Positions 18,927 to 34,709 are shown, counted from the first letter of the stretch. The stretch: DNA of 64,000 nucleotides from Bacteroidota bacterium (GCA_029237775.1 JAQZBR010000004.1:930001-994000), one strand, 5' to 3'. Notes: generated from the letters alone by a model not told the origin. Made by a program: numbers and translations.

Positions 18927-19682
18927 ATGATACTTGGAAAAAAGTTAGTTGTTGTTCTTCCGGCCTACAACGCAGGTTTGACGATTGAGAAGACCTACAA
19001 TGAAATTCCTTTTGATATTGTTGATGAAGTGATCCTTGTAGATGATGCAAGCAAGGATAACACTATAGAGGTTGCACAAAAAACAGGGATCAAACACATT
19101 ATCAGGCACGAGAAGAATAAAGGGTACGGAGGTAATCAGAAAACCTGCTACGATAAAGCACTGTCTCTTGGTGCAGATATAGTGATCATGCTTCACCCCG
19201 ATTATCAGTACACTCCCAAGCTTATTCCTTCGATGGCTAACCTGATCGCACAGGATCTTTACCATGTAGTGTTCGGCTCGAGGATCCTTGGAAAAGGTGC
19301 ATTAAAAGGCGGAATGCCAAAATATAAATATCTCTTTAACCGGATGCTGACTCTTTCACAAAACATCCTGATGAATCAAAAGCTTTCCGAATATCATACC
19401 GGTTATCGCGCCTTTTCTCGTGAGGTACTTGAAAAGATCGATTATCACGCCAACTCAGATGATTTTGTTTTCGATAACCAGATGGCAGCACAAGTATGTT
19501 ACGCAGGATATGAGATCGCGGAGATCACCTGCCCGACAAAATATTTTGCAGAAGCTTCTTCCATTAATTTTAAGCGGAGCACCGTTTACGGGTTGGGAGT
19601 ATTGGGCGTATCGTTGAGTTATTTTTTGAACCGAATAAAAATTGCCGACTCGCGTATATTCAAACCTAAAAACAGGCCATAA
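18927..19682 (+). CDS. GT2 glycosyltransferase, polyprenyl-phosphate sugar synthase type
   Basis: A 251-residue GT-A-fold enzyme with no membrane segment. The N-terminus has LVVVLPAYNAG, and VDEVILVDDASKDNT is the nucleotide-sugar-binding Asp segment. MLHPDYQYTP replaces the usual Q-D-A-D-L metal motif, a variant found in one branch of DPM1-like enzymes, and FGSRILG follows. Such enzymes transfer a sugar from a nucleotide sugar to polyprenyl phosphate at the inner face of the membrane, making the donor used by GT-C enzymes. The next gene, 6 bases later, is a GT-C-like membrane protein, which fits this. The sugar is not predictable. Confidence 0.87.
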   Translation: MILGKKLVVVLPAYNAGLTIEKTYNEIPFDIVDEVILVDDASKDNTIEVAQKTGIKHIIRHEKNKGYGGNQKTCYDKALSLGADIVIMLHPDYQYTPKLIPSMANLIAQDLYHVVFGSRILGKGALKGGMPKYKYLFNRMLTLSQNILMNQKLSEYHTGYRAFSREVLEKIDYHANSDDFVFDNQMAAQVCYAGYEIAEITCPTKYFAEASSINFKRSTVYGLGVLGVSLSYFLNRIKIADSRIFKPKNRP

Positions 19683-19688
19683 AGAGCA

Positions 19689-21665
19689 ATGAACGCAAAC
19701 AAGATTGTTCGGATCTTATTACCCCTAATTCTTCTTTTAACAGGTCTTTATCTTGTTCCACTTCAGATCTTTCATGCGGATCTTTCAAAGGTCTCAGGAG
19801 ATCTGGTGGACTCTAGGTTTAACAACTATGTGCTGGAACACGGTTACCTTTTTTTTAAAGGATCTGTAAATAAATATTGGGATGCGCCTTTTATGTATCC
19901 CTTTCATAATGTTATCGCCTTTTCTGATAACCTTTTAGGGATTGTCCCGATATATTCGTTCTTCAGAATGATAGGAGCTGACCGGGAAACAGCCTATCAA
20001 TTATTATTTATCAGCTTGTTCATATTAAACTTTATCTGCTGTTACTGGGCTCTGAACAAATGGTCACAAAATGTTTTTTTGTCATCAACAGGGGCCTATA
20101 TTTTTGCATTCTCCATTTTCATCTACGTTAATATTTACCACATACAAAACTTCCCAAGGTTTATTATTCCATTGGTATTTTACTGGCTTTGGAAATACCT
20201 GACAGAAAAAAAGACCCGTTATTTTCTTTTAACGCTTCTTGGAATTGCATTTCAATTATACTGCGCTATTTACCTGGGTTTCTTTCTGATATACGGCTTA
20301 CTTTTTTTAATTCTTGCTTATATAATTGTTACAAGAGATCTGAGCTTGTTTAAACAGTTTAAAGACTGGAGAATAATAATAAAGACATCCTCAATATTGG
20401 TGCTTTTCTTTGTGTTATTACATCCGCTACTCAGTCCCTATATTGAGATCTCCCGGCTATTTGGGATGCGAAAGTTTGAGGATGCCATCAATACAATACC
20501 AACACTAAGGTCTTACTTCTTGAGTACTGAAGCTGCGGCAATATGGAATTTTTTGTCACACCACTCAAAGGAAGCCCTGCCTGAATATTGGTGTCACACA
20601 TTATTTCTAGGGCTCCTGCCATGGTTGGGCATTTTATGTTCAGTTTATTTGATCATATCTAAACGCACAAGCCCTGTAAGCAAAAAGCTTATCACTGTTC
20701 TATTTATTGGGTGGCTGCTCAGCATGCTCTTTTGTTTGAATTTTAACGGTATGACTTTATACAGGCTCGTTTTTGAGTTGCCAGGCTTCTCGTCCATGAG
20801 GGCTATTCATCGTGTTATAAATATAGAATCTGTTTTTTTCATTTTGCTTATGGTCTTTTCTGTCAAAGAACTCTCCATGAGAAATTCCTTTATGAAATAT
20901 TTTATTTATGCACTTCCTCTTATTGTAATTATTGATAATTATCCGGACATGACCACCATCATTACTCATAATAAATCTGACTCACAGAAGAGAGTTTTGA
21001 ACGTAAGAAAAACAATAGAGGATACACACATAAAAGAAGGCACCGAGGCAATAGCATATTTGACAAACGAAGAAAATTACGAAGCTGTGCTTATACACCT
21101 GGATGTTATGCTCGCCTCTCAAGAACTTGGAATACCCTGTGTCAATGGATACTCAGGCACTTGTCCGGGAGCATTCAACGATTTTTGGAGTTACCCCGGA
21201 AGTAAATCTTTAATTAAATGGCTTAATTATGCCGGAGGAGATCTAAAACAAACCCGAATAATAAACAATTCCATTGCCTTAAAGAGAATTCAACTTGAGG
21301 CAAGCAATAAGAAATTTGTTTGCGCAGACTTATCATCGAATAATATGCTTACTGCTTCACGCGATACACCAGGTTCATGGGAAACTTTTACTTTGGATAA
21401 ACTTAGAGATCAGAAATTCGCTATTAAAGCATCTGATAACAGATTCTGGAGTTCCGAGCTAACTCAGCAAGGGGTAATTACCTCGGTTAGGTCAAATGTC
21501 GGGGAATGGGAAAATTTTGAACTGGTGTTTCTATTAAAAGACACAGTTGCGATCAAAGCTATAAATAAAAAGTATCTTACATTAAATGTGAAGGACAATC
21601 AGCTTTACGCAACAGGTGATTCTATTGGGGCGTTACAAAAGTTTGTTCTCTTCCGTGTTGAGTAA
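19689..21665 (+). CDS. GT-C-like polytopic membrane protein with C-terminal fascin-like beta-trefoil
   Basis: 658 residues. About ten hydrophobic segments fill residues 8-420, starting with IVRILLPLILLLTGLYLVP and a first extracytoplasmic loop holding DLSKVSGDLVDSRFNNY, in the place where GT-C enzymes have their acidic motif. A loop domain follows (about 420-525). The last 120 residues hold three sub-repeats: IQLEASNKKFVCADL to WETFTL, FAIKASDNRFWSSEL to WENFEL, and VAIKAINKKYLTLNV to QKFVLF. This is the fascin pattern (hydrophobic-x-(L/I)-(K/R/E)-A-x-(N/D)-x-(K/R)-(F/Y), then W-E-x-F), giving one complete beta-trefoil. The GT2 gene is 6 bases upstream. Inference: a glycosyltransferase using a polyprenyl-linked donor, with a tail that binds glycan or protein outside the membrane. 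Confidence 0.75.
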   Translation: MNANKIVRILLPLILLLTGLYLVPLQIFHADLSKVSGDLVDSRFNNYVLEHGYLFFKGSVNKYWDAPFMYPFHNVIAFSDNLLGIVPIYSFFRMIGADRETAYQLLFISLFILNFICCYWALNKWSQNVFLSSTGAYIFAFSIFIYVNIYHIQNFPRFIIPLVFYWLWKYLTEKKTRYFLLTLLGIAFQLYCAIYLGFFLIYGLLFLILAYIIVTRDLSLFKQFKDWRIIIKTSSILVLFFVLLHPLLSPYIEISRLFGMRKFEDAINTIPTLRSYFLSTEAAAIWNFLSHHSKEALPEYWCHTLFLGLLPWLGILCSVYLIISKRTSPVSKKLITVLFIGWLLSMLFCLNFNGMTLYRLVFELPGFSSMRAIHRVINIESVFFILLMVFSVKELSMRNSFMKYFIYALPLIVIIDNYPDMTTIITHNKSDSQKRVLNVRKTIEDTHIKEGTEAIAYLTNEENYEAVLIHLDVMLASQELGIPCVNGYSGTCPGAFNDFWSYPGSKSLIKWLNYAGGDLKQTRIINNSIALKRIQLEASNKKFVCADLSSNNMLTASRDTPGSWETFTLDKLRDQKFAIKASDNRFWSSELTQQGVITSVRSNVGEWENFELVFLLKDTVAIKAINKKYLTLNVKDNQLYATGDSIGALQKFVLFRVE

Positions 21666-21666
21666 A

Positions 21667-23463
21667 CTACTTTTTATAACTTATATAGATCTTGAATGTT
21701 TCTCTTTTGGAAATTGATTCTCCATTTGCAACAAGCCTGCTCTCCGGCTCTTCTCCCACACTGACATATTTTTGATTATCCGCTTTTAGTGCAACCCTGT
21801 TGTTACCTAAGTAAATCAGTTCAAAAATTTCCCAACCACCTATATTCTCCCTATCAGCGACCAGCTTCCAACCTTTTTCTCTGTCACTTGATACATATTT
21901 TCCATTGTCAGCACGTAACGCGATTTTATTGCCACCGACATGTATAATAGAGAACCGCTCCCACGGTCCACGTTCGTAACGAACAGCATCTAAATCGCCC
22001 GTTGTACTCACCTCACAACTTACAGCTTTTAAATTCCATGCTTTCAGGGCGATCTTCTGCCACTCTTTTAATCCGGCAATTTCACTTTCCGATATCTTTT
22101 CTGGATAACCCTGAACCAGGCGATCGTAGTCAGGATCTTCAAGCGACTCATACCACTCCACTGTCGGAAGCTTCAAAAAGAAACCTGTGAGATATGATTT
22201 TCTTGTCATTGAATCGTAATGGATCATTCCTTCCTCAAATTGTTTTGTCTGGTACAAATTAAGAGAGATCAGGAGTATTATGATTGCAGACATCATGCTC
22301 TTTATAAGTATTCTTCCCTCAATAAACATTTTTTCGTAAAGCGCGGCCAGGGGAATGGAAAGCAAGCCATAAAAGTCGACCATTGCACGCTGACTGAAAG
22401 ATCCGCCATACCACCAGCACCACCAACTGAAAATAACATATATAGAAATTAAAAGTGGAACAGTTATGGCCGAAACAAAAACTTTCTTGTCCCTCTTTAG
22501 AAATACAATTCCTGCTAGTGCAAGGATCATAATTGGAGTATAGAGCAACCAACCCTTCCTGAAACTGAATAACCCCTCTAAAACATGAGCATCATTAAAA
22601 TAAAAGCGCTCTCCGATATAAGAAAAGAAGAACCAGCTACCTGTTACATATTTCCAATATAATAATTGTGGTAGTTGAACTAATAAGAAACAAATTATTA
22701 TTGCAAGAATGCTTTTAAGATTCTGTTTAATTCTTTCAATCTTAATAAATAACGATTTCTTATTATAAACATCATAGAATACAAAAAACAACGTACAAAT
22801 AATAAGGGTTGGCCTTACAAGCGTCATTAAACCGGCAAGCAATCCAATGAATATTGCACGTTTGACATTTGCTGAATTGTGCCATAGGATAGTGTGATAG
22901 GCAAAAGCATTGATAATACAGAATAAATATCCGTGAGACATCAAGCCATCAACCGTAGAATACCAGAGAAGATTAGTGCCAAAATAGACCGAAAGCAAAG
23001 TTATGGCAACGATACCTTCAGTAAAAAACATTAACAGGATGCGCCTTAAATAAAACAAACCCAGCAGAAGATAAAACAAGCTGCTTATGTTCAGACAAAC
23101 TTGATAAGGCATGGAAAACCCATCCTGTGGTTGATGGAACAAAGGAGCGGTAAAATGGCCAAGAAAGAAGAAAGGCGCATACAGAATGCTTAAGCCGGCA
23201 GACATCTTAATTACCTTGCCTCCGTTTGGTGCGTCTTTGGGCCAGAACTTATCCCCGAAAAACGAATTGTTCTCTACAAACTTCAAGCTTAAATCGTGAT
23301 AAATAAAAGTGGCAGGGAGATAGCTGTAGTATGACACCACATCATTGGTGATCTGGTTCTTCTTCCAGGGTTGATTCAAATACATTGCTGAAAGCCAGAA
23401 AACAGCCACAAGGACGATTGTCCATTTACTTAAAGGAAAGCTGCGCGTTATACCGGAATTCAT
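21667..23463 (-). CDS. GT-C-like membrane protein with C-terminal fascin-like domain
   Basis: 598 residues. About eleven membrane segments cover residues 13-420. The first loop has NDVVSYYSYLPATFIYHDLS, a middle loop has GLFSFRKGWLLYTP, and a later loop has FSWWCWWYGGSFSQRAMVD. These three landmarks recur in the proteins ending at 25289 and 27867, so the three are paralogues. The C-terminus has three fascin-like sub-repeats: IALKAWNLKAVSCEV to WERFSI, IALRADNGKYVSSDR to WEIFEL, and VALKADNQKYVSVGE to RETFKI. The stop codon lies one base from that of the plus-strand gene ending at 21665, so two fascin tails meet end to end. Probably an envelope glycosyltransferase; sugar and acceptor unknown. 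Confidence 0.75.
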   Translation of the reverse strand: MNSGITRSFPLSKWTIVLVAVFWLSAMYLNQPWKKNQITNDVVSYYSYLPATFIYHDLSLKFVENNSFFGDKFWPKDAPNGGKVIKMSAGLSILYAPFFFLGHFTAPLFHQPQDGFSMPYQVCLNISSLFYLLLGLFYLRRILLMFFTEGIVAITLLSVYFGTNLLWYSTVDGLMSHGYLFCIINAFAYHTILWHNSANVKRAIFIGLLAGLMTLVRPTLIICTLFFVFYDVYNKKSLFIKIERIKQNLKSILAIIICFLLVQLPQLLYWKYVTGSWFFFSYIGERFYFNDAHVLEGLFSFRKGWLLYTPIMILALAGIVFLKRDKKVFVSAITVPLLISIYVIFSWWCWWYGGSFSQRAMVDFYGLLSIPLAALYEKMFIEGRILIKSMMSAIIILLISLNLYQTKQFEEGMIHYDSMTRKSYLTGFFLKLPTVEWYESLEDPDYDRLVQGYPEKISESEIAGLKEWQKIALKAWNLKAVSCEVSTTGDLDAVRYERGPWERFSIIHVGGNKIALRADNGKYVSSDREKGWKLVADRENIGGWEIFELIYLGNNRVALKADNQKYVSVGEEPESRLVANGESISKRETFKIYISYKK

Positions 23464-23469
23464 TATGCT

Positions 23470-25269
23470 TTATCTGACAATCAATGAAAATTTACTATTG
23501 ATCCCCCACCATCTTTTGTTTTCGGAAACAATATCAACCTCTACGGAATACTCTCCTCTTTCTTTTGGAAGGATCACGGTTAAGCCTTGCAGATATGATT
23601 CTTTAATATCCACTTCCAAAGGAGTTCTCACACCATCCGCAATCAATTTCTCTCCCTTGTTATTATAAACGTGATAGCTTAACAAAACCGGATGATCACC
23701 CGAAGGTATGGAAGCAAGCTTTTTACCTGAAAGGTTTTCGATACGCAGCGGAACAACTACAAAAGAATCGGAATCAGAATAGAATTTATCCTTTACCGCT
23801 GTTAACCGGATGTTGTCTTTACCGAACACCTCTTCATGAAAGGCTGTATCCGATTGATAAGAGTTTAATTTCTCGTATCCGCTGGAAGGGAGATGAAAAT
23901 AATCGTGATTCAGATTCTGGCTTCCAAACCAGGTAATAGCCCATTTGGGGCCCAGAAAAATATTTTCCTTGTTGATCAATGAATCATGTTTATTTATGTC
24001 GTCTGTTACATACACCGTCACCACGGAATCCGGTCCCGCCAAGCCTGAAAACAAGGTTGTCTCAAATGGTACGGCCCATTCTACCCAGCTGGTCTGCCAT
24101 GGAAAATTGGTTGTACTGACAAGAAATTTTTTATGCTCTTGCTTTCTCCCATATGAAATAAGTCTGCCGAGATAGTTTGTCCGCTTCGTTAAAATATCAT
24201 GAGCGTTGTAAATTCCGACACAGTTAACAATAAGCAGGATCACAACCACGCTTAATTCTACACTCTTTGGCAAGAAGCCATCGCATGAGAATATAAAAGC
24301 TACAGCTGCAAAAAAGCCAAGAACCGTATAGTAGTTTTCATACATCAATGGTGATTCTCCCTTGTAATAGGTTATGAGTATCAGCACGAGAAAACCTAAT
24401 GAAAATGCGGGCAGAAAAAGAAAATAAAGCCAGTTGCGTGATCTGAACAGATAATACCAGGCAGCCATAAAAACCAGGAACATTGACCAGAAATGCTGCT
24501 TTGCAAAGAGTTTAAAATACACGGTGCTGGGTAGATAGCGAATATTCGGGAGCTGCTCGAGGAAAACATCCATCGTAGGGATCTTCTCATTTTCATAGGC
24601 TGTATCGGTAAGTATATATATTCGAATCAAAAACCAGGTAATAGTAATTCCCGAAATGATCCAGAGATAACGATCCTTAAACCTTTTACGACCTATGAGC
24701 TCGGTTGCTAAAACAAAAGCAATTGTGAACAATGTTAACTGATGCAAATAGGACATTATATAAATAAGAAGAAGCGAAAAGACAAAACGTAGAATACGTT
24801 TGCTTTTTGTGCTGTTTTCTTTTGGCTCAGCGATCAAAGCCCACAAAAGGACACTCAGTGCTATCCCTAGGTATAATTCCGCTGTAGTGTAATAAAAAGC
24901 GTGTCGGAAGGCGAGACAAAGAGCCAGCATCAGAGCAATAGCAGCTCTGTAATTTTTAAGCAAGATTAGCAACAGAAAAATAATAAGGTAATTGATGATC
25001 GGAGCAATAGAAAATAAATGCAGAAAAGTGGATAGATCACATCCGTTTTTTAGGGCGGCTAGTGGTAATACCTGAGAGAATACAGACCCCCATCTACCAA
25101 GCGCAATACTGTAATCCCTCTGATCGATCATTAAAAATGTAAAGAAAGACGGATCAAAAGCAAGGACACGCTCTTTGAAAAAATACCAGCCAAGAAACAG
25201 AAAGAAGCCAAAAAAAAGTAATCCGCAAAGCAGGATCAGCCTTTTATAATTTTTTTCGATGAATTCCAT
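23470..25269 (-). CDS. GT-C-like membrane protein with C-terminal Ig-like domain
   Basis: 599 residues with about ten membrane segments (12-360). The first loop contains FDPSFFTFLMIDQRDYSIAL, where acidic GT-C residues would be expected. From about residue 385 a soluble segment follows (KKFLVSTTNFPWQTSWVEW, GLAGPDSVVTVYVTDD). The last 100 residues form a beta-sandwich-like module with LLSYHVYNNKGE, DGVRTPLEVDI, PKERGEYSVEVDIV and a final WWGINSKF. I recognise the order 'W/Y-x-x-(N/D)-x-x-G, D-G-x-R-T-P-L, P-G-x-Y-x-(L/V)-x-x-D-(I/L)-V, W-(F/W)' from the C-terminal ends of other bacterial glycosyltransferases. The gene follows its neighbour by 19 bases and precedes the next by 6, so it belongs to the minus-strand operon. 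Function inferred only. Confidence 0.72.
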   Translation of the reverse strand: MEFIEKNYKRLILLCGLLFFGFFLFLGWYFFKERVLAFDPSFFTFLMIDQRDYSIALGRWGSVFSQVLPLAALKNGCDLSTFLHLFSIAPIINYLIIFLLLILLKNYRAAIALMLALCLAFRHAFYYTTAELYLGIALSVLLWALIAEPKENSTKSKRILRFVFSLLLIYIMSYLHQLTLFTIAFVLATELIGRKRFKDRYLWIISGITITWFLIRIYILTDTAYENEKIPTMDVFLEQLPNIRYLPSTVYFKLFAKQHFWSMFLVFMAAWYYLFRSRNWLYFLFLPAFSLGFLVLILITYYKGESPLMYENYYTVLGFFAAVAFIFSCDGFLPKSVELSVVVILLIVNCVGIYNAHDILTKRTNYLGRLISYGRKQEHKKFLVSTTNFPWQTSWVEWAVPFETTLFSGLAGPDSVVTVYVTDDINKHDSLINKENIFLGPKWAITWFGSQNLNHDYFHLPSSGYEKLNSYQSDTAFHEEVFGKDNIRLTAVKDKFYSDSDSFVVVPLRIENLSGKKLASIPSGDHPVLLSYHVYNNKGEKLIADGVRTPLEVDIKESYLQGLTVILPKERGEYSVEVDIVSENKRWWGINSKFSLIVR

Positions 25270-25288
25270 AGTTCTCTAAAGCAAATAT

Positions 25289-27184
25289 TTAGTTCGGAGC
25301 CTCTTCTTTTTTCTCGTACGCTTCCACTTTGAAATCATCAATATACACAGGGTCTTTACCCCTGAACCAGAAATAGATGTTTATTTTATCATTTTCATTT
25401 CTGACTTCCGGAGTCAGATAATCGAAAACGAATTTATTCCATTGCCCGAGGGTGACGTGATCTTCAGGAAGTGTTCCCACATCAACAACAGAGTATTTGT
25501 ACGCCTCCCCTTTATAGTTTGTAAACATGACTACAAGACCTAAAGGATTTTGTTTCGGATCAGCTTTGGGTAAATACCATACGGTTGTCCTGATCCAGGC
25601 GTGATCTTTTTCGGTGATCAGATTATATGACAACTCATTTTTATGGGTATAAATAAAATTGCTATTAGTCATTATCGAATATTTCCCGCTTCTTGAAATG
25701 GAATCAACGTATTGCTCTTTGCTTCCCGCCTCTTCCGGGACTTCAAAATCATCATAAAAGATCACATGCTTCTGATATTCATTGATGTTTAGAATATGCT
25801 CAACTCCAATCTGCGATCTGTCGACCATTAACAACTTCTTGTCCTGAGGTTCCGTTTTACTTTTCCCGAATATCTTTAAGTAATATTCTTTTGTCATCCT
25901 GCTCTCATCGATGATCCCATTCATGTATTGCCAGCTCTGAAAGATATTCAGTAACACAAAAAAGCCTATAAGAGAATAGATCAACCATTTAAATCCGCGC
26001 TTTAAACCTGAAGCGCTGATACCATAAATAAAATAACCTAAGGGCAGGATCAGAATGGCGTATGAGTCAATCATTGCGCGTTGACCATAGGAAGAAGCAT
26101 AATACCAACAGCTCCAGCTCGAAACCACGTATACATTCAAAATAAAAAACGCGAGCATGGGCCAAAAGATATTGCGTTGTAATTTGTATACATAATAAAA
26201 CCCGGCTACCGCGCAGAGCATCAATGGTGTGTAAACAAACCATCCTTTGCGGAAACTGAAAAGCACTTGTAAAAGATAAGGCCTCAGGAATTCAAAGCCT
26301 TCACCGGGATTATTTGTGTAGCCCGTACTTAACCATGTGTCGTTCACTGCTTTCCAGTAATTCATCTGCAAGAAGCCAACTGCAAAACAACAAACGAGAC
26401 CAACAAGCAATTTGAACTTGTGATCAGCAAAAACCGAAACTATTTTTTCTTTTAAGGACTTTAGTGATATAACGTTCCAGAGAGCCGGAACTATAACGAT
26501 AAGCCCATCGGGAGGCCTTGTCAGGATACAGAACCCGAGCGTCAGCCCTAGAAAAGCAGCTAACAGCATAGAAGGAGATTCGTGAATCCTAATGGTAAGA
26601 TAAAGGATGATAGAAAATAACGCGAACTCCATTGTATGAATGGACGGACCAATAATGGAACAGACATAATAATTGGTGCCTAAAATTATAAGAAGAAGAA
26701 GCAAAGCAGATAAGGCATCAGAAAAAAAGCGCAACAAGGCTTTTCTTAGAAAGATAAACCCTAAGATGATGTAAAAGAAATGACAAACGATCATTGCTTT
26801 TTGATAAGGTAAGGAAAAGCCATCCGCTTCATAACCCAGACCTGGCGCGAAAAAATGGGCTGCTGCAAAAAAGGGAAGCTCGAGTACAGCAGCACCCATC
26901 GTATATTTGATCATCCAGTTTCCGTTCTCCGTACGGCTACCCTGGTAAAAGGAAGATGTGCTGTTGTATTTTTTATTTATCTCCTCTACTTTCGAAAAGT
27001 CTTTCAAACCCGAATCGTCCCAAAGTACATAAGCAGGAGTGTATAGGTAATATCCGAACATGTCCCAGGAAAGGACATTGCCCCATTTGTGTGTAATAGG
27101 CATTGAACTGTACCACCCCGCGATCATCAGCATGACCATAAGTGAGTATTTGCGGACTTTAGTATTCTGAAAAATGCTTTTCAA
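25289..27184 (-). CDS. GT-C-like membrane protein with C-terminal jelly-roll-like module
   Basis: About 631 residues. I choose the TTG at 27184, which gives a basic start (KSIFQNTKVRKYSL) before the first membrane helix; ATG at 27139 is an alternative. A longer frame to GTG 27268 is unlikely because it runs through the terminator of the neighbouring gene and this gene's own promoter. Landmarks shared with its paralogues are SWDMFGYYLYTPAYVLWDD, VLFSFRKGWFVYTP and SSWSCWYYASSYGQRAMID. The C-terminus (about the last 155 residues) begins FYDDFEVPEEAG and ends PVYIDDFKVEAYE, a beta-sandwich of carbohydrate-binding type like that of the lipoprotein at 18362. It therefore shares a catalytic part with the fascin-tailed proteins but has a different tail. 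Confidence 0.72.
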   Translation of the reverse strand: MKSIFQNTKVRKYSLMVMLMIAGWYSSMPITHKWGNVLSWDMFGYYLYTPAYVLWDDSGLKDFSKVEEINKKYNSTSSFYQGSRTENGNWMIKYTMGAAVLELPFFAAAHFFAPGLGYEADGFSLPYQKAMIVCHFFYIILGFIFLRKALLRFFSDALSALLLLLIILGTNYYVCSIIGPSIHTMEFALFSIILYLTIRIHESPSMLLAAFLGLTLGFCILTRPPDGLIVIVPALWNVISLKSLKEKIVSVFADHKFKLLVGLVCCFAVGFLQMNYWKAVNDTWLSTGYTNNPGEGFEFLRPYLLQVLFSFRKGWFVYTPLMLCAVAGFYYVYKLQRNIFWPMLAFFILNVYVVSSWSCWYYASSYGQRAMIDSYAILILPLGYFIYGISASGLKRGFKWLIYSLIGFFVLLNIFQSWQYMNGIIDESRMTKEYYLKIFGKSKTEPQDKKLLMVDRSQIGVEHILNINEYQKHVIFYDDFEVPEEAGSKEQYVDSISRSGKYSIMTNSNFIYTHKNELSYNLITEKDHAWIRTTVWYLPKADPKQNPLGLVVMFTNYKGEAYKYSVVDVGTLPEDHVTLGQWNKFVFDYLTPEVRNENDKINIYFWFRGKDPVYIDDFKVEAYEKKEEAPN

Positions 27185-27205
27185 ATATTCTTGTGCTTGA
27201 GGCCT

Positions 27206-27238
27206 TAAATTTAGTTTATTATTAACATATAAAGGCAA
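27206..27238 (-). promoter_or_regulatory. candidate promoter for the jelly-roll-tailed GT-C gene
   Basis: On the minus strand TTG (27236-27238), 22 bases, then TAAATTTA (27206-27213), 7 of 8 to TAnnTTTG. A run of seven G (C on the minus strand) lies just upstream at 27242-27248. This supports a start codon at 27184 or later. Confidence 0.4.
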
Positions 27239-27256
27239 GAAGGGGGGGTATTTATA

Positions 27257-27289
27257 ACAAAAAAGCACCCTGGTTTAACCAAGGTGCTT
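27257..27289 (-). terminator. rho-independent terminator after the fascin lipoprotein gene
   Basis: On the minus strand AAGCACC (27283-27289) pairs with GGTGCTT (27263-27269). An inner TGGTTTAACCA palindrome extends the stem, and TTTTTTG follows. It sits 18 bases past the stop of the lipoprotein gene. Confidence 0.85.
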
Positions 27290-27307
27290 CTCCTAAATTT
27301 TATCTGC

Positions 27308-27799
27308 TTAATTTTGGCTGATCATTTCAAATGTTTCCCAATCCCTTCCTGTTTGTCTGTCTCCAATTAAAATATCACCCTTTCCTTTATCGGAAGTCAC
27401 GAACATCGGCTCGGTGGTTTTAATATGAACGTGCGTTTCATCTAAGGCAACAATTTCGAAGGTTTCCCACTCATTTGCCACATCTTTATCCGCGTAAAGA
27501 ACAGAGTTTCTTGATCTGTCAGCACTAACGAATTTGCCGTTAGCTGCTTTTAAGGAACACCTTCCGTTACCAAGATCAATCTTTTCAAATACGGTTGCTT
27601 TAGTTGGATCTGTTTGATTAGGAACCAACATATTGTTCTCTCCCAATGAAACGAACTGACTATTGTTTGCTTTTAAAATGAATTTTTCACTGACTGGTGC
27701 AGCTTGTTGTTCTGAAGTTTGCGTGTCAGGATTGCTCTTTTCTGAGCCGCATGCCATTATAAAAAGGGCAACAATGATTAAGCTGATTTTTGCTCTCAT
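27308..27799 (-). CDS. free-standing fascin-like beta-trefoil lipoprotein
   Basis: 163 residues. The lipoprotein signal is MRAKISLIIVALFIMACGSE, with the acylated Cys at 17. After a short Thr/Gln/Ala linker (SNPDTQTSEQQAAPVSE) almost the whole mature protein is one beta-trefoil of three sub-repeats: FILKANNSQFVSLGE to VFEKIDL, CSLKAANGKFVSADR to WETFEI, and VHIKTTEPMFVTSDK to WETFEM. These closely resemble the tails of three neighbouring membrane proteins. Eukaryotic fascin uses this fold to bundle actin; bacterial copies are mostly seen attached to secreted enzymes and are thought to bind ligands such as sugars. This gene has its own promoter and terminator inside the glycosyltransferase cluster, so it may be expressed separately. 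Role inferred: envelope glycan binding or scaffold. Confidence 0.8.
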   Translation of the reverse strand: MRAKISLIIVALFIMACGSEKSNPDTQTSEQQAAPVSEKFILKANNSQFVSLGENNMLVPNQTDPTKATVFEKIDLGNGRCSLKAANGKFVSADRSRNSVLYADKDVANEWETFEIVALDETHVHIKTTEPMFVTSDKGKGDILIGDRQTGRDWETFEMISQN

Positions 27800-27827
27800 G
27801 ATTCTATACGTTTTAAATTATTGGCGG

Positions 27828-27835
27828 TAAATATA
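27828..27835 (-). promoter_or_regulatory. candidate promoter -7 element for the fascin lipoprotein gene
   Basis: TATATTTA on the minus strand, 7 of 8 to TAnnTTTG, 28 bases before the ATG at 27799. No clear TTG element is seen at the right distance. Confidence 0.4.
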
Positions 27836-27866
27836 CATAGAATTGATATATGAATTCGATCTGGTT

Positions 27867-29603
27867 TTACTTTCGCTTTATTAAAAATTTTTCCGCTCTT
27901 TCTGGCGTTGTTTGTTGCGCAAAGAAATATTGGCCTTCTCTAACGAGAAATTTATTGTTGCATGCCTTAATTATAACCACTTCATTACTTTGCCGGATAA
28001 GCTCAAATTGTTCCCACTCCTTAACTTGAGTACCCTGATGTGTTAAAATTGAATTTAGGTCTAACCGCACAGAAAAGTAGTTACCATCATCACATCTAAA
28101 TGCAACTTTTTTATCATCAATTGAAATTAGATTAAAGCTTTCCCAAGAACGGGTTTGATCCCTGGTACCTTCTATCTTTTTATTATCATCCCGGGCTGCA
28201 CTTAAGTACTTATTCGATGATAGCGCCCGGATACTCACAATATCAGATGAAGCACCTTCAAAAAAAACATCGCATCCGGCAATTCCCTCAAGGTCCGGGG
28301 ATGTTTTCATAAAAGTGAACCAAAACTTTTTTTCGTTCATGTTGGCATAATCTAAAATATGGTTTTTGTACTGGTAAGTTAAAACCAAGGAATAGGCTAC
28401 GATAGTTATGATAGGAATACAAACAAGAATTCGTAAAGATTTTTTTCTTATTCCTAAAATTAAAAACACTAAAAGTAATGCAAGTACTGAGTACGAATCA
28501 ACAAAGGCTCGCTGACCCAGACTTCCACTGTACCACCAACACCACCAGCATGAAATAACATAGGTATTTGCAATTAAGAAACTGCTCACCATTATAAATT
28601 GAAATCTGTTCGTCCGGAATAAATATATTAATCCCGTTAAAGCAATAATAAACAGCGGTGTGTATACAAAAAGTCCTTTCCGATAACTGAAAAGTACATT
28701 GTAAATTTGAGGGCTTCCAAAGTAAAAACGTTCTTCTCCATATGACCACACTATTATATGACCCGTTTGCAGATAATAAAGTATGAACTGTGTAACAAGA
28801 ACTGATAAAAATAAGATCGCGCTAATAAAATAGTCTCTTGCGTGCAATTGGCGAAGAGAATCTGTAAATCTTCGAAAGCTTCCCGCAAAAAAGGGAAGCA
28901 TTAATATTATAATCGCATTTGTAGGCCTCAGAAGAATTATCAGGCCAAATAATAAAGCTGCGCAGTAAAGATTCTTTTTGTTCGCTGTTAATATGACAGC
29001 TCTTGAATAATATAAAAAAGCGGAAATTATACCGAATGAATAAACATGTGTAAGGACAGAATCGTATGTTGTATAAAAGAAAAGGTTGGTCCCAAATACT
29101 ATTAACAACACAACCCCTGAGTTAATAATTCTTGATGGACTATACTCGGATATTAATCTTAAGGTATACCTGCATCCCAGCCATAAGAAGATGTTAGCTG
29201 CCAGTAAAACAAATACATGATAAAGATATGAGTATCCATCGGCAGGAATCCCTGCAAGCTTTGATAAGACATGAGCAAGAAGAAAAAAAGGGGTCCAAAT
29301 AATGGCTAAACCGACAAAATATTTATTTGCTTTCCCCTGTTCTGTCTTAATCAAAAACCCATCAGAGATATCCATATCACTGTGGGTTCTTTTAGCATCT
29401 TCTAAAAAAGAATATGTATAGTCATTATAAATAAAAATGGCTGGTAAATAAGAATAATAACCCAGGCCATCGGAGCGGATAACGCCCTCGGGATTTCTAT
29501 CCTTGATCTGGAAGTGGTAAGAGGTGACAAGAGAGATTATTAATATTAACTCACAAACATATTTGGAAATAATATCGAGAATAAAAAGCTGTTTTTTTTC
29601 CAA
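27867..29603 (-). CDS. GT-C-like membrane protein with C-terminal fascin-like domain
   Basis: 578 residues, starting at TTG 29603, 4 bases after the stop of the GT2 gene upstream; no ATG is available before the first membrane segment. The membrane part (about 14-410) has the landmarks of its two paralogues: RSDGLGYYSYLPAIFIYNDY in the first loop, VLFSYRKGLFVYTP, and SCWWCWWYSGSLGQRAFVD. The C-terminus has three fascin-like sub-repeats: VSIRALSSNKYLSAA to WESFNL, VAFRCDDGNYFSVRL to WEQFEL, and VIIKACNNKFLVREG to EKFLIK. The tight spacing to the DPM1-like GT2 gene suggests that enzyme supplies a polyprenyl-phosphate sugar for this one. Acceptor unknown. Confidence 0.75.
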   Translation of the reverse strand: MEKKQLFILDIISKYVCELILIISLVTSYHFQIKDRNPEGVIRSDGLGYYSYLPAIFIYNDYTYSFLEDAKRTHSDMDISDGFLIKTEQGKANKYFVGLAIIWTPFFLLAHVLSKLAGIPADGYSYLYHVFVLLAANIFLWLGCRYTLRLISEYSPSRIINSGVVLLIVFGTNLFFYTTYDSVLTHVYSFGIISAFLYYSRAVILTANKKNLYCAALLFGLIILLRPTNAIIILMLPFFAGSFRRFTDSLRQLHARDYFISAILFLSVLVTQFILYYLQTGHIIVWSYGEERFYFGSPQIYNVLFSYRKGLFVYTPLFIIALTGLIYLFRTNRFQFIMVSSFLIANTYVISCWWCWWYSGSLGQRAFVDSYSVLALLLVFLILGIRKKSLRILVCIPIITIVAYSLVLTYQYKNHILDYANMNEKKFWFTFMKTSPDLEGIAGCDVFFEGASSDIVSIRALSSNKYLSAARDDNKKIEGTRDQTRSWESFNLISIDDKKVAFRCDDGNYFSVRLDLNSILTHQGTQVKEWEQFELIRQSNEVVIIKACNNKFLVREGQYFFAQQTTPERAEKFLIKRK

Positions 29604-29607
29604 AAGA

Positions 29608-30330
29608 CTATTTTGAAAACAGATTATACTTCAAAATACACCAAATAGCTCTAAATCCGTCTTTCCAACCGATCTTCTTCCCTTCTTCGTAGGTCCTTCC
29701 ATAATAAGAAATTCCTACTTCATAAATTCTGATGTTAGGAACACGCGCAATTTTTGCAGTTACTTCCGGTTCAAATCCGAAGCGTTTTTCTTTCAGCTTG
29801 ATCCCCTGAATTGTTTCTGTTTTAAAAACTTTATAGCATGTTTCCATATCAGATAGATTCAAATTGGTAAACATATTTGAAAGGAAGGTAAGCATTTTGT
29901 TTCCGATCGTATGCCAGAAGAACAGAATCCTGTGAGGTTCACCACCGGCAAAACGTGAACCGAATACAACATCAGCAAAGCCTGTTATGATCGGTTTTAA
30001 AAGAACATTGTATTCTTCCGGATCGTATTCAAGATCGGCATCCTGGATCACCAGAAAATCACCCGTTGCCAAAGAAATCCCCTTGTGCAATGCCGCTCCT
30101 TTACCCTGGTTATATTCCTGGTTAAACAAACGGATGTTGTGTGCACTATTATCTGCAATATATCTTTCGATCACCTCTTTGGTTGCATCCTTCGAACAAT
30201 CATTAACGATAATGATCTCCTTTTCGATGTCATTAACAAGCTTAACCGCGAGGACCTTATTTAAAATTAAATGAATGGTCCTTGCTTCATTGTATGCAGG
30301 TATTACTATTGACAGTTTTTTGATCGGCAT
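29608..30330 (-). CDS. GT2 glycosyltransferase, DPM1-like
   Basis: 240 residues with no membrane anchor. [15 protein letters not shown] is the N-terminal strand-helix, [13 protein letters not shown] carries the nucleotide-binding Asp, and [13 protein letters not shown] is the GKG-A loop. [12 protein letters not shown] is the metal-binding D-A-D motif, and [12 protein letters not shown] follows. This is the dolichyl/polyprenyl-phosphate mannose or glucose synthase family, which makes lipid-linked sugar donors for periplasmic GT-C enzymes. It is 3 bases after the SGNH-like gene and 4 bases before a GT-C-like gene, in the middle of the operon. Compared with the enzyme at 18927 it keeps the canonical QDAD motif, so the two may use different sugars. 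Confidence 0.92.
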
Positions 30331-30333
30331 TCT

Positions 30334-31380
30334 TTATTGGTTTTTATATTCTTTTAAATAAAACTTTTTTAATCCATTAGCAAGGTTATCTCCCACCGCT
30401 TTTCTTCCAATTTGATTATAGTGCTCCGTTGTCCAATGCTGATCCACGAAATCTTTTCCGTTCACCTTTTCAAGGTTGTCTACCACCAGCACTCCTTTCG
30501 AAGTATAACGCTTAACTAAAAGATCTCGGGTCTGATGCATCAAATATATTAAATCTTTTCCCACCAGCGAGTCTGCATACTGAACATTTTCCGCCAAAAG
30601 ATTGAAGACAATATTAAGATCTTTCTCCTTACATACTTCAACAATCTCATCAAAGTCTCTCAATCTTGGATTGTTCAGCGTATCGATCTGAAACGCGTAG
30701 GCTTTTATATAATGACACGCAAGATCGATCTTAGGCTGATCCCAGGAACCGTCAGCTAGTATAAAGCCACCATCAGCCATCCCTTTATCCCATTCTCTGA
30801 CATTCTTGTACTTGAAGGGATAAGGAAATTTCAGCTCATCTTTTTCCCACTGATCAAGCATATCCTGCTCTCGTTCCTTTTCGCTTTTGTTCTCAAATAC
30901 ATTCAGGGAAAATAAAAAACGGTTCACGATCGCAGGGTAAGTCTGATACATGATCTTTGTCTTAAGCAAATACGACTCGAGTGAGGAGTTGATCCAAGTG
31001 GCATCAAAAGACCTTAGGTTAAGTGTGAAAATGACTGTTTTCACTTTTGCGTTTTTTGATAAGTGCTTCACAACTGCACAGTACATCCCAGCATGCATGG
31101 CAGGCCTTGTTACTGCGCCAACCTTCAAGGTGGGAAAATGATCTGCTGCAATCCTGCTAATGGATCTTTTGTCAGTATCTAAGCTATCGGTGTGAAAGTC
31201 GGATGACTCACCGAAATACAACATGTCGCATGTGTCTTGCTTAGTCAGCAACTCATACAGCATGTCCGCATGGTTGTCGAGATCCTTCATCCAAAACGTT
31301 TTTTTGTAGATCACATTCAGGACGAGCACAATCAGCACAAGGGCTACAATTCTTATTACTATTTTCCTTAACTGCTCCAT
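30334..31380 (-). CDS. SGNH-like membrane-anchored protein paired with MBOAT
   Basis: About 348 residues from the ATG at 31380; a TTG one codon earlier is also possible. One N-terminal membrane helix (about 8-27) anchors a periplasmic domain. That domain begins MLYFGESSDFHTD, a G-x-S-like block I of SGNH hydrolases, with GES in place of GDS. It ends DQHWTTEHYNQIGRKAVGDN, where D-x-x-H and the following N-x-x-G match the catalytic block V seen in DltD- and AlgJ/AlgX-like partners of MBOAT enzymes. Its ATG overlaps the MBOAT stop codon by one base (TGATG), so translation is probably coupled. Inference: it receives an acyl group exported by the MBOAT and places it on a glycan. Confidence 0.72.
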   Translation of the reverse strand: MEQLRKIVIRIVALVLIVLVLNVIYKKTFWMKDLDNHADMLYELLTKQDTCDMLYFGESSDFHTDSLDTDKRSISRIAADHFPTLKVGAVTRPAMHAGMYCAVVKHLSKNAKVKTVIFTLNLRSFDATWINSSLESYLLKTKIMYQTYPAIVNRFLFSLNVFENKSEKEREQDMLDQWEKDELKFPYPFKYKNVREWDKGMADGGFILADGSWDQPKIDLACHYIKAYAFQIDTLNNPRLRDFDEIVEVCKEKDLNIVFNLLAENVQYADSLVGKDLIYLMHQTRDLLVKRYTSKGVLVVDNLEKVNGKDFVDQHWTTEHYNQIGRKAVGDNLANGLKKFYLKEYKNQ

Positions 31381-32786
31381 CAAAATTGAAAATATATGAA
31401 TGGAATATTTTCAGCTCCGGCCAAAGCAAGGACCCCGAATATGAACGTTGAATAGATGCTCCAGCGAAGAGCCAGAGGTTTAGCAGCCATCCATTCTTCA
31501 AGCTTTTTATTGAAGAAAAGAATGTCTGTTAAAATAAATACAAGCAATAGTACCCAAATCTTCGGATCAGTTTTTACCTTATCTGAAACATCATAATTAC
31601 TCAGCAAAGACTGAAAAACAAGCCGGGCTTTCTCAAATGATTCCGCCCTGAAAAACACCCAGGCAATACTAACGATCAGAAATGTTTTAATGATCCTGAT
31701 CGCATCATAAACCGGATTTGTTTTATTCGTCTGAAGATTCATTAACTTATTCGCACCTCTTTCTATGATATAAAACAATCCGTGCAGAGCACCCCAGATG
31801 ATGAATGTCCACCGGGGACCATGCCACAAGCCGCTGATAATAAAAACGATCATGATATTGATCACCCATCGCGCGACTTTTACTTTATTTCCACCGAGAG
31901 GAATATACAGGTAATCACGAAACCAGGTGCTAAGCGAGATGTGCCAGCGCTGCCAGAACTCAGCAATATTCTTTGATAAGTATGGTGTTTTGAAATTTTC
32001 CATCAGGTCAATTCCCATCAATTTTGCAGCGCCCATCGCGATCAGCGAGTAGCCATAAAAATCTGCATAGATCTGAAAAGAGAAGAAGACTATTCCTTTT
32101 GCAATGCTTAAGGAACCGCATTCAGCCGGATTAGCATACACAGAGTTTACAAATGGAGCAAGGTTATCCGCGATCACCATTTTTGCGAAAAAACCGAAAA
32201 GAATAAGGCGGAATCCTTTCGCGAAATTTCCATACAAAAGAACATGGTGTTTTTTCAGCTGCTCTCCAAGCCTTTGATATCGTTCGATCGGACCAGCCAC
32301 CATTTGCGGAAAGAAAAGAACATAATTAGCAAAATGACCAAGATGCTTTTCCGCTTTTTGATTTCCGCGATACACTTCAATTGTGTAAGCCATCGACTGG
32401 AAAGTATGAAAGGAAAGACCGATAGGCAGTATGATATCAAGATACGCGATAGGGTTCTCCCTTTCCAGGTGATCCAGAAGCCATGTTACATTTTCATTGA
32501 CGAAGTTGAAATATTTAAAGAAGACAAGGAGGCCAATGTTGCTGCAAAGGCTGATCACGAGTATTACTTTTTTTCTATAGCCCTGTTGTTTCTCAATAAG
32601 AATTGCTGAAAAGTAATCAAGGAGAATGATAAAAAAGAGAATCAGAATGTAATACGGAACGAGCGCCATATAGAAGTAGCAGCTTGCAACGAATATTAAC
32701 ATCCATCTGAAACGCTGTGGTAACAAATAGTAAAGGACAATTACTATCGGCAGAAAGATGAGAAAGTGAAGAGAATTGAACAGCAT
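31380..32786 (-). CDS. MBOAT-family O-acyltransferase (AlgI/DltB-like)
   Basis: 468 residues with about eleven membrane segments. The family core is clear: WQRWHISLSTWFRDYLYIPL (about 295-315), then GGNKVKVAR, and IISGLWHGPRWTFIIWG with the invariant active-site His of L-W-H-G near residue 337. LPIGLSFHTFQSMAYTIEVY and ERYQRL are also typical. MBOAT proteins carry acyl groups, usually acetyl, across the inner membrane for O-acylation of polysaccharides such as alginate, cellulose, teichoic acid or peptidoglycan. The overlapping SGNH-like gene completes the usual two-part acylation unit. The setting among GT-C-like and GT2 genes suggests the target is the glycan built by this locus. Confidence 0.92.
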   Translation of the reverse strand: MLFNSLHFLIFLPIVIVLYYLLPQRFRWMLIFVASCYFYMALVPYYILILFFIILLDYFSAILIEKQQGYRKKVILVISLCSNIGLLVFFKYFNFVNENVTWLLDHLERENPIAYLDIILPIGLSFHTFQSMAYTIEVYRGNQKAEKHLGHFANYVLFFPQMVAGPIERYQRLGEQLKKHHVLLYGNFAKGFRLILFGFFAKMVIADNLAPFVNSVYANPAECGSLSIAKGIVFFSFQIYADFYGYSLIAMGAAKLMGIDLMENFKTPYLSKNIAEFWQRWHISLSTWFRDYLYIPLGGNKVKVARWVINIMIVFIISGLWHGPRWTFIIWGALHGLFYIIERGANKLMNLQTNKTNPVYDAIRIIKTFLIVSIAWVFFRAESFEKARLVFQSLLSNYDVSDKVKTDPKIWVLLLVFILTDILFFNKKLEEWMAAKPLALRWSIYSTFIFGVLALAGAENIPFIYFQF

Positions 32787-32807: not shown

Positions 32808-34709
32808 CTAACGGTAATACGAAAGCCATTTGAATTCTTGTTTCCTAATATTTAATAAGTGTTTGTCGGGGTTCCAAATATATGCTTTTATTTCATCCCC
32901 AGATTTAACTGCAGCGGGCACAACACACGTGAAATTCGCCCTGAAATAATCTGTTTCATTCCTTATAAAATCTTTTACATACGCCTTTTGCCACGAATAC
33001 AATTCTCCTTTAGAATCCTGAAATGACAAAACCATTACCAGATTATCATAATTTAGATCCGGTGCCATCACCTCAGCATAAAAAGCGATCACAGCTTCTT
33101 TATTGGGTGTAATGCTATCATTCACAATGTATGAAAATCCCGGTGCGTACTCTACATTTTCATCAACCGTGTAGTGTCCCCTCGATTCATTTCCATAATT
33201 CAACTCTTTCACGAATATCGTTTTGATCTCTTTAAAAGGATATTTCGGACGTGCCAATATATTTCCTGTTACGGGATATGTTTTAATTATTTCAATTGAA
33301 TCCCGGTTAAATTCACTCAGATCTTTTTGCGAGAGGCAATAAAAGTCGTGAAGTGGGCTGTTTGTCTCGGATCGCCACACGCTGTTCAGCCAAACTAATT
33401 GATCCTTCTCCCGATAAAAATTTATTGCGGGATCAAAGATCAGTGGAATGCCAATACTGATTGTTTCTTTTCCTTTCGGGATCGTTTTTAATACGCTAAT
33501 ATCACTCAACATCTCTTTTGTGTTCGCATCATATTTCCATTCGAGCACGTATATAAGATTCAAACATTTTGCAAAATGAAGCACCATTATTGAAGCTAAT
33601 ACACCGGCAATGTATATTGTGAGCCCTTCTTTTTTAAGTAGCTGATCATATAGGAAAACAAGAAAAATATTGAAAAGAACAACAAGAAATAAAACAGTGC
33701 GGTCAGTCAGAAAAAGAGTGTCAAGGGTATAGAATTGAACAATCGTTGAAAGGGATGTCAAGAACAGCAAGAAAACTATGGCAGCAAGAAATAAAAAGCT
33801 TTTGTCGAAGTCTTTCTTTTTAAATACATTCGTTAAAACATAAACAAACCCGAAGAAGCACGATAGCACAACGAATGCTTTTACTGCCCGCTGAACCATA
33901 TAATGAGCATATGGTTGCTCATAAAAGCTCCGATCGATTATTGTGCAAATCGTGTCCGCCCAAAAGCCTCTGCTGCCGCCAAAATACAAAGCACCAGCTG
34001 CTTTGAGGTCAAGGGCAATTGGTATGATCAAACCAAATAATGAGAGAATGACAACGACTGGAAGAGCGATGCTTTTAAGTAAATTTTTTACACTCAAAGA
34101 AGTATTCTTCTTCAGAAAATAAATATTTAGCAGGACGATCGATCCGAAAAGAACAACAAAATAATTCAGTAGCACGAAATTGGCAAGCACTGCAAACGCT
34201 GCAAAGAACATTGCAATTGTGCTGTTTTTTTTGCTTCCATCTTTCTCTATAAACACAAACAGGTAGTAAATACTTGCAATCATCAATCCAATGGAAAGTC
34301 CGTACCCACGCGCTAGTGAGAAAAAGTCGATCATGTAGGGATTCAGATTAATGATAAGAAACCCAAATACAGCGAGCCATTTGTTCCGGCACTTAAGAAC
34401 CAAGCGACCCGAATAATAAAGGAATAGGCCATGAGCAAGAAGTGAGGGTATTCTTAAAGCGAACTCATTAACACCAAAGATCTTGGAAAAGAAAGTCATT
34501 CCTGCAGCGTTCAGGATATGATTGTTTGCCGACATCATATCATACTTATCGAGGAAAACCCTCCCATTCCGAACAAACTCAATGTATGAATATGCCTCGT
34601 CCCAGGTAATGCACAAGAGCGCAGCACGGATCACAGTGTAGGCTAACAACAATAGCGCTATCACGAATATTATCGTCCGGCTCCATTTAAGCTCTTCCTT
34701 TAACATCAT
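32808..34709 (-). CDS. GT-C-like membrane protein with C-terminal jelly-roll-like domain
   Basis: 633 residues; two ATG codons in a row (34709 and 34706). The first overlaps the stop of the upstream gene by four bases (ATGA), so translation is coupled. About eleven membrane segments span residues 13-400. The first loop has LLCITWDEAYSYIEFVRNG, whose acidic W-D-E-A is the kind of motif that binds the donor or metal in GT39-type mannosyltransferases. DFFSLARGYG follows a short loop later, again as in GT-C proteins. After a soluble segment, the last 130 residues read as a beta-sandwich: GFSYIVNDSITPNKEAVIAF, NLVMVLSFQDSKGELYSW and DEIKAYIWNPDKHLLNI. This resembles the tail of the protein ending at 25289. 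Sugar and acceptor unknown. Confidence 0.75.
   Translation of the reverse strand: MMLKEELKWSRTIIFVIALLLLAYTVIRAALLCITWDEAYSYIEFVRNGRVFLDKYDMMSANNHILNAAGMTFFSKIFGVNEFALRIPSLLAHGLFLYYSGRLVLKCRNKWLAVFGFLIINLNPYMIDFFSLARGYGLSIGLMIASIYYLFVFIEKDGSKKNSTIAMFFAAFAVLANFVLLNYFVVLFGSIVLLNIYFLKKNTSLSVKNLLKSIALPVVVILSLFGLIIPIALDLKAAGALYFGGSRGFWADTICTIIDRSFYEQPYAHYMVQRAVKAFVVLSCFFGFVYVLTNVFKKKDFDKSFLFLAAIVFLLFLTSLSTIVQFYTLDTLFLTDRTVLFLVVLFNIFLVFLYDQLLKKEGLTIYIAGVLASIMVLHFAKCLNLIYVLEWKYDANTKEMLSDISVLKTIPKGKETISIGIPLIFDPAINFYREKDQLVWLNSVWRSETNSPLHDFYCLSQKDLSEFNRDSIEIIKTYPVTGNILARPKYPFKEIKTIFVKELNYGNESRGHYTVDENVEYAPGFSYIVNDSITPNKEAVIAFYAEVMAPDLNYDNLVMVLSFQDSKGELYSWQKAYVKDFIRNETDYFRANFTCVVPAAVKSGDEIKAYIWNPDKHLLNIRKQEFKWLSYYR

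Follow-up and report, generated by a model that had tools for sequence, protein, structure and literature searches.

What do fascin-type domains do on the membrane enzymes of a bacterial gene cluster? The question is raised by a 64,000-nucleotide stretch of a Bacteroidota bacterium genome (GCA_029237775.1, JAQZBR010000004.1:930001-994000), the window of this analysis. Four of its genes, here called A to D, were predicted from sequence to carry such a domain, three as a C-terminal tail of a polytopic protein (A, B, and D) and one as a lipoprotein (C). All four open reading frames (ORFs) are present (Table 1), and Pfam finds one fascin-type domain in each (DUF7910, FRG1, or Fascin) where the original prediction had placed it. 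The polytopic carriers resemble GT-C glycosyltransferases and are of two types, A-type and B-type, the latter comprising B and D.

A CBM92 trefoil in four clustered genes

The four genes carry three-repeat beta-trefoils of the carbohydrate-binding module (CBM) family CBM92, formerly named the bacterial fascin-like domain (PMC11039641). The assignment comes from profiles for all four domains and from a structure model for B. DUF7910 E-values are 2.4e-12 for A, 4.6e-07 for B (FRG1, 1.1e-10), 4.4e-12 for lipoprotein C, and 2.1e-11 for D. A hidden Markov model built from 16 tails of the window and its relatives matches CBM92-B (PDB 7zoh) at 1.3e-26, CBM92-A (7zoi) at 1.4e-24, and fascin at 3.5e-22. 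An AlphaFold2 (AF2) model of B, made from 36 sequences, has a mean predicted local distance difference test (pLDDT) score of 91.2 and a predicted template modeling score of 0.87, with 12 strands in residues 470-595. In a Foldseek search of this model, CBM92 structures are the best PDB matches, with TM-scores of up to 0.89 over the target and a probability of 1.00. The trefoil fold that had been proposed for the tails is borne out by the model for B, and for A, lipoprotein C, and D it is read from sequence. When viral proteins are searched, the significant Foldseek matches are trefoil or fascin-like proteins, and no relatives were found in the viral contigs searched.

Across the 4.08-Mb genome, DUF7910 matches these four genes and no others. 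Because every match falls in this cluster, the clustering of the domain is not due to chance. A more sensitive profile finds one further, degenerate copy in the genome, on contig C11.

Actin-bundling fascin consists of four tandem trefoils. The window proteins are bacterial, have one trefoil each, and fit CBM92 better by both profile and Foldseek, and a fascin/actin-type reading was therefore dropped. CBM92 is a sugar-binding branch of the fascin-type trefoils, which makes sugar binding, rather than filament-type scaffolding, the natural reading of what had been described as a binding or scaffolding set.

Each of the three subdomains of CBM92 contains a WExF motif, and binding depends on its Trp, although the published family includes members missing some sites (PMC11039641). 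Characterized members favor beta-1,6-linked glucans, and in the same survey the domain is attached almost always to hydrolases or lyases. This usual attachment is not seen here, where polytopic GT-C-like proteins and a lipoprotein carry the domain. All twelve predicted sub-repeats are present in the window, but the Trp-Glu pair expected of them is kept in eight, two per protein. The pair is missing from the third site of each membrane-protein tail (LQKF, RETF, and AEKF) and from the first site of lipoprotein C (ATVF).

Site retention varies with carrier type across 70 domains surveyed in the window and its relatives. B-type tails have Trp-Glu at site 1 in 17 of 29 cases, at site 2 in 19 of 29, and at site 3 in none (0/29). 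The tails of AlgX-type proteins behave similarly (4/5, 5/5, and 0/5), whereas among ten small or lipoprotein forms, nine have site 2, nine have site 3, and two have site 1. All three sites are kept in L072, L074, and L147, which are proteins without predicted membrane spans. The degenerate copy on C11 (G000:C11:771556-771942; L078:8545-10332) is the tail of a B-type protein and has lost all Trp-Glu sites. L096, L097, and L101 have B-type tails of the same all-sites-lost form, and in each of them a GT2-like protein of roughly 470 amino acids comes next.

Carrier enzymes and the location of the tails

The tailed polytopic proteins had been described as GT-C-like. The tails do sit on GT-C-like enzymes, and these are of two types unrelated by sequence. 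B and D are paralogs (32% identical), and together with a third, differently tailed paralog in the cluster they are 28-33% identical. A is not detectably related to B or D by sequence. Profile comparisons of the A, B, and PMT_2-type cores, and of the core type encoded at 32808-34709, gave no significant relation, so carriers called unrelated here are unrelated at this sensitivity.

B-type cores are common in Bacteroidota (78 loci), mostly as proteins of about 455 amino acids without a tail. The layout of B is a large first loop, a large second loop, and then four helices. Asp41, in the first extracytoplasmic loop after transmembrane segment (TM) 1, is invariant (36/36). In the outer loop of the four-helix C-terminal cluster, R359 is kept in 36 of 36 sequences and P371, at x11 spacing, in 29 of 36. 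GT-C topology is characterized by just such a cluster, with a conserved R and then P in the outer loop and an outer C-terminus (PMC6801728). D matches NF047440, a putative glycosyltransferase family, at 3.5e-9, which is below the cut-off, and PMT_2 Pfam matches occur in only a few members of the B-type family. A sequence comparison of B-type proteins with solved GT-C structures gave no match, and the best 50 Foldseek matches listed for the B model are all trefoils. A has at least eight TMs by hydropathy, and its core has no match in Pfam. The AF2 model of A, built from five sequences, reached a pLDDT of 52 and was left out of the fold claims because of its few relatives and low confidence. The A-type protein is a likely GT-C candidate. 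Elsewhere, a GT2 and a B-type GT-C-like protein are fused in one polypeptide (L132:3745-5811 and L143:4804-6921), suggesting that the B-type enzyme uses the GT2 product.

The tails lie outside the cytoplasm, as had been predicted, and three lines of evidence agree on this. In B, the large second extracytoplasmic loop is succeeded by four helices, as is typical of GT-C topology with the C-terminus on the outer side (PMC6801728), and the K/R counts of the core loops alternate in keeping with it. In the AF2 model of B, the helices between the two large loops exceed a clean even count by one. One such helix must therefore not span the membrane, and the C-terminus argument rests on the last four helices. 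Homologous CBM92 domains are also found in outer settings, in the lipoprotein, behind an N-terminal lipobox before a PMT_2 GT-C protein, and at the C-terminus of AlgX-type proteins (PF16822, E 2.6e-13). In the domain tree, these AlgX-type tails are close kin of the GT-C tails. An outer location is predicted for the tails of A and D from their similarity to the others and from the same evidence.

Sharing of the domain among relatives

The fusion recurs in a group of uncultured Bacteroidota. Of 36 genomes of the genus, 16 have the domain, as do 40 of 395 genomes (19 of 196 genera) of the class. At least one polytopic carrier is present in 17 of 20 fetched regions, which were chosen from among the matches. 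Carriers in the class sample are mostly unrelated GT-C-like membrane proteins, AlgX-type O-acetyltransferases beside an MBOAT gene (adjoining in L061, L062, L065, and L079), and lipoproteins. Some GT-C carriers match PMT_2 above the Pfam cut-off, in L077 (CBM92 C-terminal) and in L120 and L085 (N-terminal, behind a lipobox). GT-C-like enzymes of one cluster do share tails, and their binding of one common glycan, as had been proposed, is plausible. In relatives the set extends beyond glycosyltransferases to AlgX-type O-acetyltransferases.

Homologous enzyme cores are seen with CBM92, with another tail, or tail-less. In the domain tree, which is limited by few columns, the carriers are mixed, with 21 carrier changes. 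A 30-member clade containing B-type, A-type, AlgX-type, and other membrane carriers has a support of 97/96, and in genome G004 the AlgX tail pairs with the neighboring GT-C tail (100/98). These two G004 tails share an identical tract of 79 nucleotides (L079:7674-7752 and 10752-10830) and are elsewhere about 60% identical. The tract looks like gene conversion, or it may be an assembly artifact. Shorter identical tracts occur in L062 (36 nucleotides) and L061 (30 nucleotides), and those between different genomes are at most 23 nucleotides. Another CBM92 lies nearby in 7 of 18 tailed B-type loci versus 2 of 60 tail-less loci (Fisher p 3e-4, relatedness ignored). Shared use of CBM92 by several enzymes is thus well supported by the relatives.

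A second tail is shared in the window. The last 150 amino acids of the third B-type paralog and of the PMT_2-like candidate match each other (hhalign probability 96%, E 3.6e-9), while the cores are unrelated. For the paralog's tail, no Pfam match and no solved relative were found. C-terminal module sharing between unrelated membrane enzymes is therefore not limited to CBM92. Another beta-trefoil family appears in the same setting at L067:29-1801, where a protein that combines ricin-type lectin stretches with predicted membrane segments adjoins the cluster. GH5-like proteins (Cellulase in Pfam) with one predicted N-terminal hydrophobic stretch lie beside related clusters (L065:18152-19621 and L068:5237-6736), a possible clue to the glycan.

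The cluster and the possible role of the tails

The genes around A to D are best explained as a cluster for extracytoplasmic glycan assembly that combines GT2 synthases for lipid donors, a number of GT-C-like transferases, and an acyltransferase pair of an MBOAT and a putative SGNH protein (Table 1). The GT2 protein beside D is likely a maker of the lipid donor. The SGNH-like protein has no match in Pfam or PDB.

Table 1. Genes and CBM92 domains of the cluster, by position in the window
Feature	Position	Strand	Evidence
Second GT2, polyprenyl-phosphate sugar synthase type	18927..19682	+	AglJ- and dolichyl-phosphate hexose transferase-like, below cut-offs
A: A-type GT-C-like polytopic protein, C-terminal CBM92, 658 aa (amino acids)	19689..21665	+	ORF, Pfam (tail), hydropathy
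CBM92 tail of A, residues 531-658, WETF/WENF/LQKF	21279..21662	+	Pfam, site alignment
B: B-type GT-C-like protein, C-terminal CBM92, 598 aa	21667..23463	-	Pfam, AF2, conserved Asp41, R359-x11-P
CBM92 tail of B, residues 468-598, WERF/WEIF/RETF	21670..22062	-	Site alignment, AF2, Foldseek
Polytopic GT-C-like protein, C-terminal soluble region without CBM92	23470..25269	-	Hydropathy; no Pfam match
Third paralog (31% identical to B), different C-terminal tail	25289..27268	-	Sequence comparison; hhalign
C: lipoprotein, 163 aa, consists of CBM92 domain; N-terminus MRAKISLIIVALFIMAC lipobox-like	27308..27799	-	Pfam
CBM92 domain of C, residues 37-163, ATVF/WETF/WETF	27311..27691	-	Site alignment
D: B-type GT-C-like protein, C-terminal CBM92, 578 aa, TTG start	27867..29603	-	Pfam
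CBM92 tail of D, residues 453-578, WESF/WEQF/AEKF	27870..28247	-	Site alignment
GT2, polyprenyl-phosphate sugar synthase type	29608..30330	-	PF00535 E 2.7e-33; best NCBIfam relative AglJ, below cut-off
SGNH-like protein adjoining MBOAT, no CBM92	30334..31383	-	GES and D..H motifs by eye
MBOAT membrane O-acyltransferase	31380..32786	-	PF03062 E 6.5e-28; DltB-like E 3.1e-53, below cut-off
PMT_2-like GT-C candidate, tail as in third paralog	32808..34709	-	PF13231 E 2e-4, below cut-off; hhalign
Further polytopic protein, 8 TM	34706..36283	-	Hydropathy; orthologs in relatives

On balance, we favor a role in which the shared CBM92 tails, usually divalent, tether glycan-assembly and acylation enzymes to the same glycan. 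The tails would stand on the outer membrane face of several cluster enzymes, with one further domain on the lipoprotein, and each would most likely grip glucosyl-type ends or branches of the growing glycan through two Trp-Glu sites. The acceptor would be held near the active sites, raising processivity, and the enzymes would be co-localized on one glycan chain, which lipoprotein C could hold or pass on. With one module common to GT-C enzymes, acetyltransferases, and lipoproteins, what keeps the assembly line together would be the glycan itself. Tethering is an inference, and so is the identity of the ligand as product or acceptor glycan. More tentatively, CBM92 could be a tag for a shared ligand, one sugar-binding module copied by recombination onto enzymes as they join an extracytoplasmic glycan assembly line. 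GT-C enzymes of several families, AlgX-type acetyltransferases, and lipoproteins would be its recipients, and the glycan would organize the complex and couple elongation, side-chain addition, and acetylation.

Several points weigh against tethering. The A and B cores are assigned to GT-C by topology and motifs, and their profile comparison with PMT_2-type cores is not significant. The acyltransferase partner in the window itself is without CBM92. Glucan specificity should not be taken for granted, given that one known CBM92 binds carrageenan. Trp-Glu sites are absent altogether from some B-type tails, among them the fifth copy of this genome, so loss of the known binding chemistry need not entail loss of the domain. 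This last point also lends some support to reading the tails as protein-protein or oligomerization modules, a fascin-like scaffold in which trefoil-trefoil or trefoil-lipoprotein contacts hold the complex together. No B-type, A-type, or AlgX tail retains site 3, and one B-type subclade, to which the C11 copy belongs, retains no site at all, so selection can keep the fold without sugar sites; fascin itself, detectable by profile, binds protein. We consider such a scaffold unlikely, as the best matches are CBM92 and not fascin, and in each carrier type the Trp-Glu pair, used for sugar binding, is far better retained at two of the sites than at the remaining one.

An equally improbable alternative is that the tails bind a pre-existing envelope polysaccharide and merely anchor or position the enzymes, with the acceptor left unbound. 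Characterized CBM92s bind beta-1,6-linked glucans largely regardless of the substrate of the attached enzyme (PMC11039641), and GH5-like proteins lie beside some related clusters. However, the enzymes are predicted to be in the cytoplasmic membrane, and the sharing of tails by enzymes of one biosynthetic locus, and by AlgX-type acetyltransferases as well, speaks for that locus's product as the ligand. Less likely still, the tails could bind the glycan of glycoproteins in a protein O-glycosylation system, with CBM92 giving processivity as MIR does in PMT protein O-mannosyltransferases. MIR sites do change PMT processivity (PMC7759382), and some carriers are of the PMT_2 type. PMT_2 is, however, a broad GT-C family whose substrates are not only proteins, and the MBOAT/AlgX partners point to polysaccharide acylation.

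The cluster and the tethering that we favor have parallels in known systems. CpCBM92A and CpCBM92B of Chitinophaga pinensis (7zoh and 7zoi; PMC11039641) share the domain family, fold, WExF motif, and a Bacteroidota host with the window tails, but they belong to secreted hydrolases and have a Trp at all three sites, whereas the domains here sit on membrane biosynthetic enzymes and mostly have two or one. PMTs likewise combine a GT-C core with an extracytoplasmic sugar-binding beta-trefoil, the luminal MIR, with two conserved sugar sites (PMC7759382); unlike the window proteins, they are eukaryotic, use another trefoil family, act on proteins, and do not spread the trefoil over unrelated enzymes of one locus. 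EmbC-type mycobacterial arabinosyltransferases are GT-C enzymes with a C-terminal lectin-like CBM that binds the acceptor via Trp (PMC3044687), although this CBM is not a CBM92 trefoil and belongs to another phylum and glycan. AlgX has an SGNH domain and a C-terminal CBM in an MBOAT-containing acetylation system (PMC4148444), and the relatives here have AlgX-family proteins with CBM92; in AlgX itself the module is not CBM92, and no GT-C partner shares it. A lipid-donor synthase and a GT-C enzyme acting outside the cytoplasm recall three-component periplasmic glycosylation (GT2, flippase, and GT-C; PMC11127046). In the portion of that account available to us, no shared binding tails were found for those systems, and in the window cluster no flippase gene was identified.

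The CBM92 domain is thus already known, as is the idea of a GT-C enzyme with an extracytoplasmic binding domain (PMT MIR and EmbC), and similar logic is known from the AlgX CBM. We found no CBM92 on glycosyltransferases, or on several biosynthetic membrane enzymes of one locus, in the literature searched, with subscription papers outside it, and the word glycosyltransferase is absent from the main CBM92 survey (PMC11039641). Relative to that literature, CBM92 on biosynthetic membrane enzymes of several families, common to one locus, is new. CBM92 has so far been known as an accessory of polysaccharide degradation, and its spread over glycan-synthesis enzymes suggests a general way to keep a chain on its assembly line. 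Two Trp per tail offer a testable handle on the coordination of periplasmic glycosylation and acetylation. Annotation of CBM92 or fascin-like proteins as degradative enzymes can be wrong.

Elsewhere in the window, positions 2618-9061 encode a giant protein of 2147 amino acids that has 13 SprB repeats as well as a CHU_C type IX secretion signal, and a PorP/SprF gene follows.

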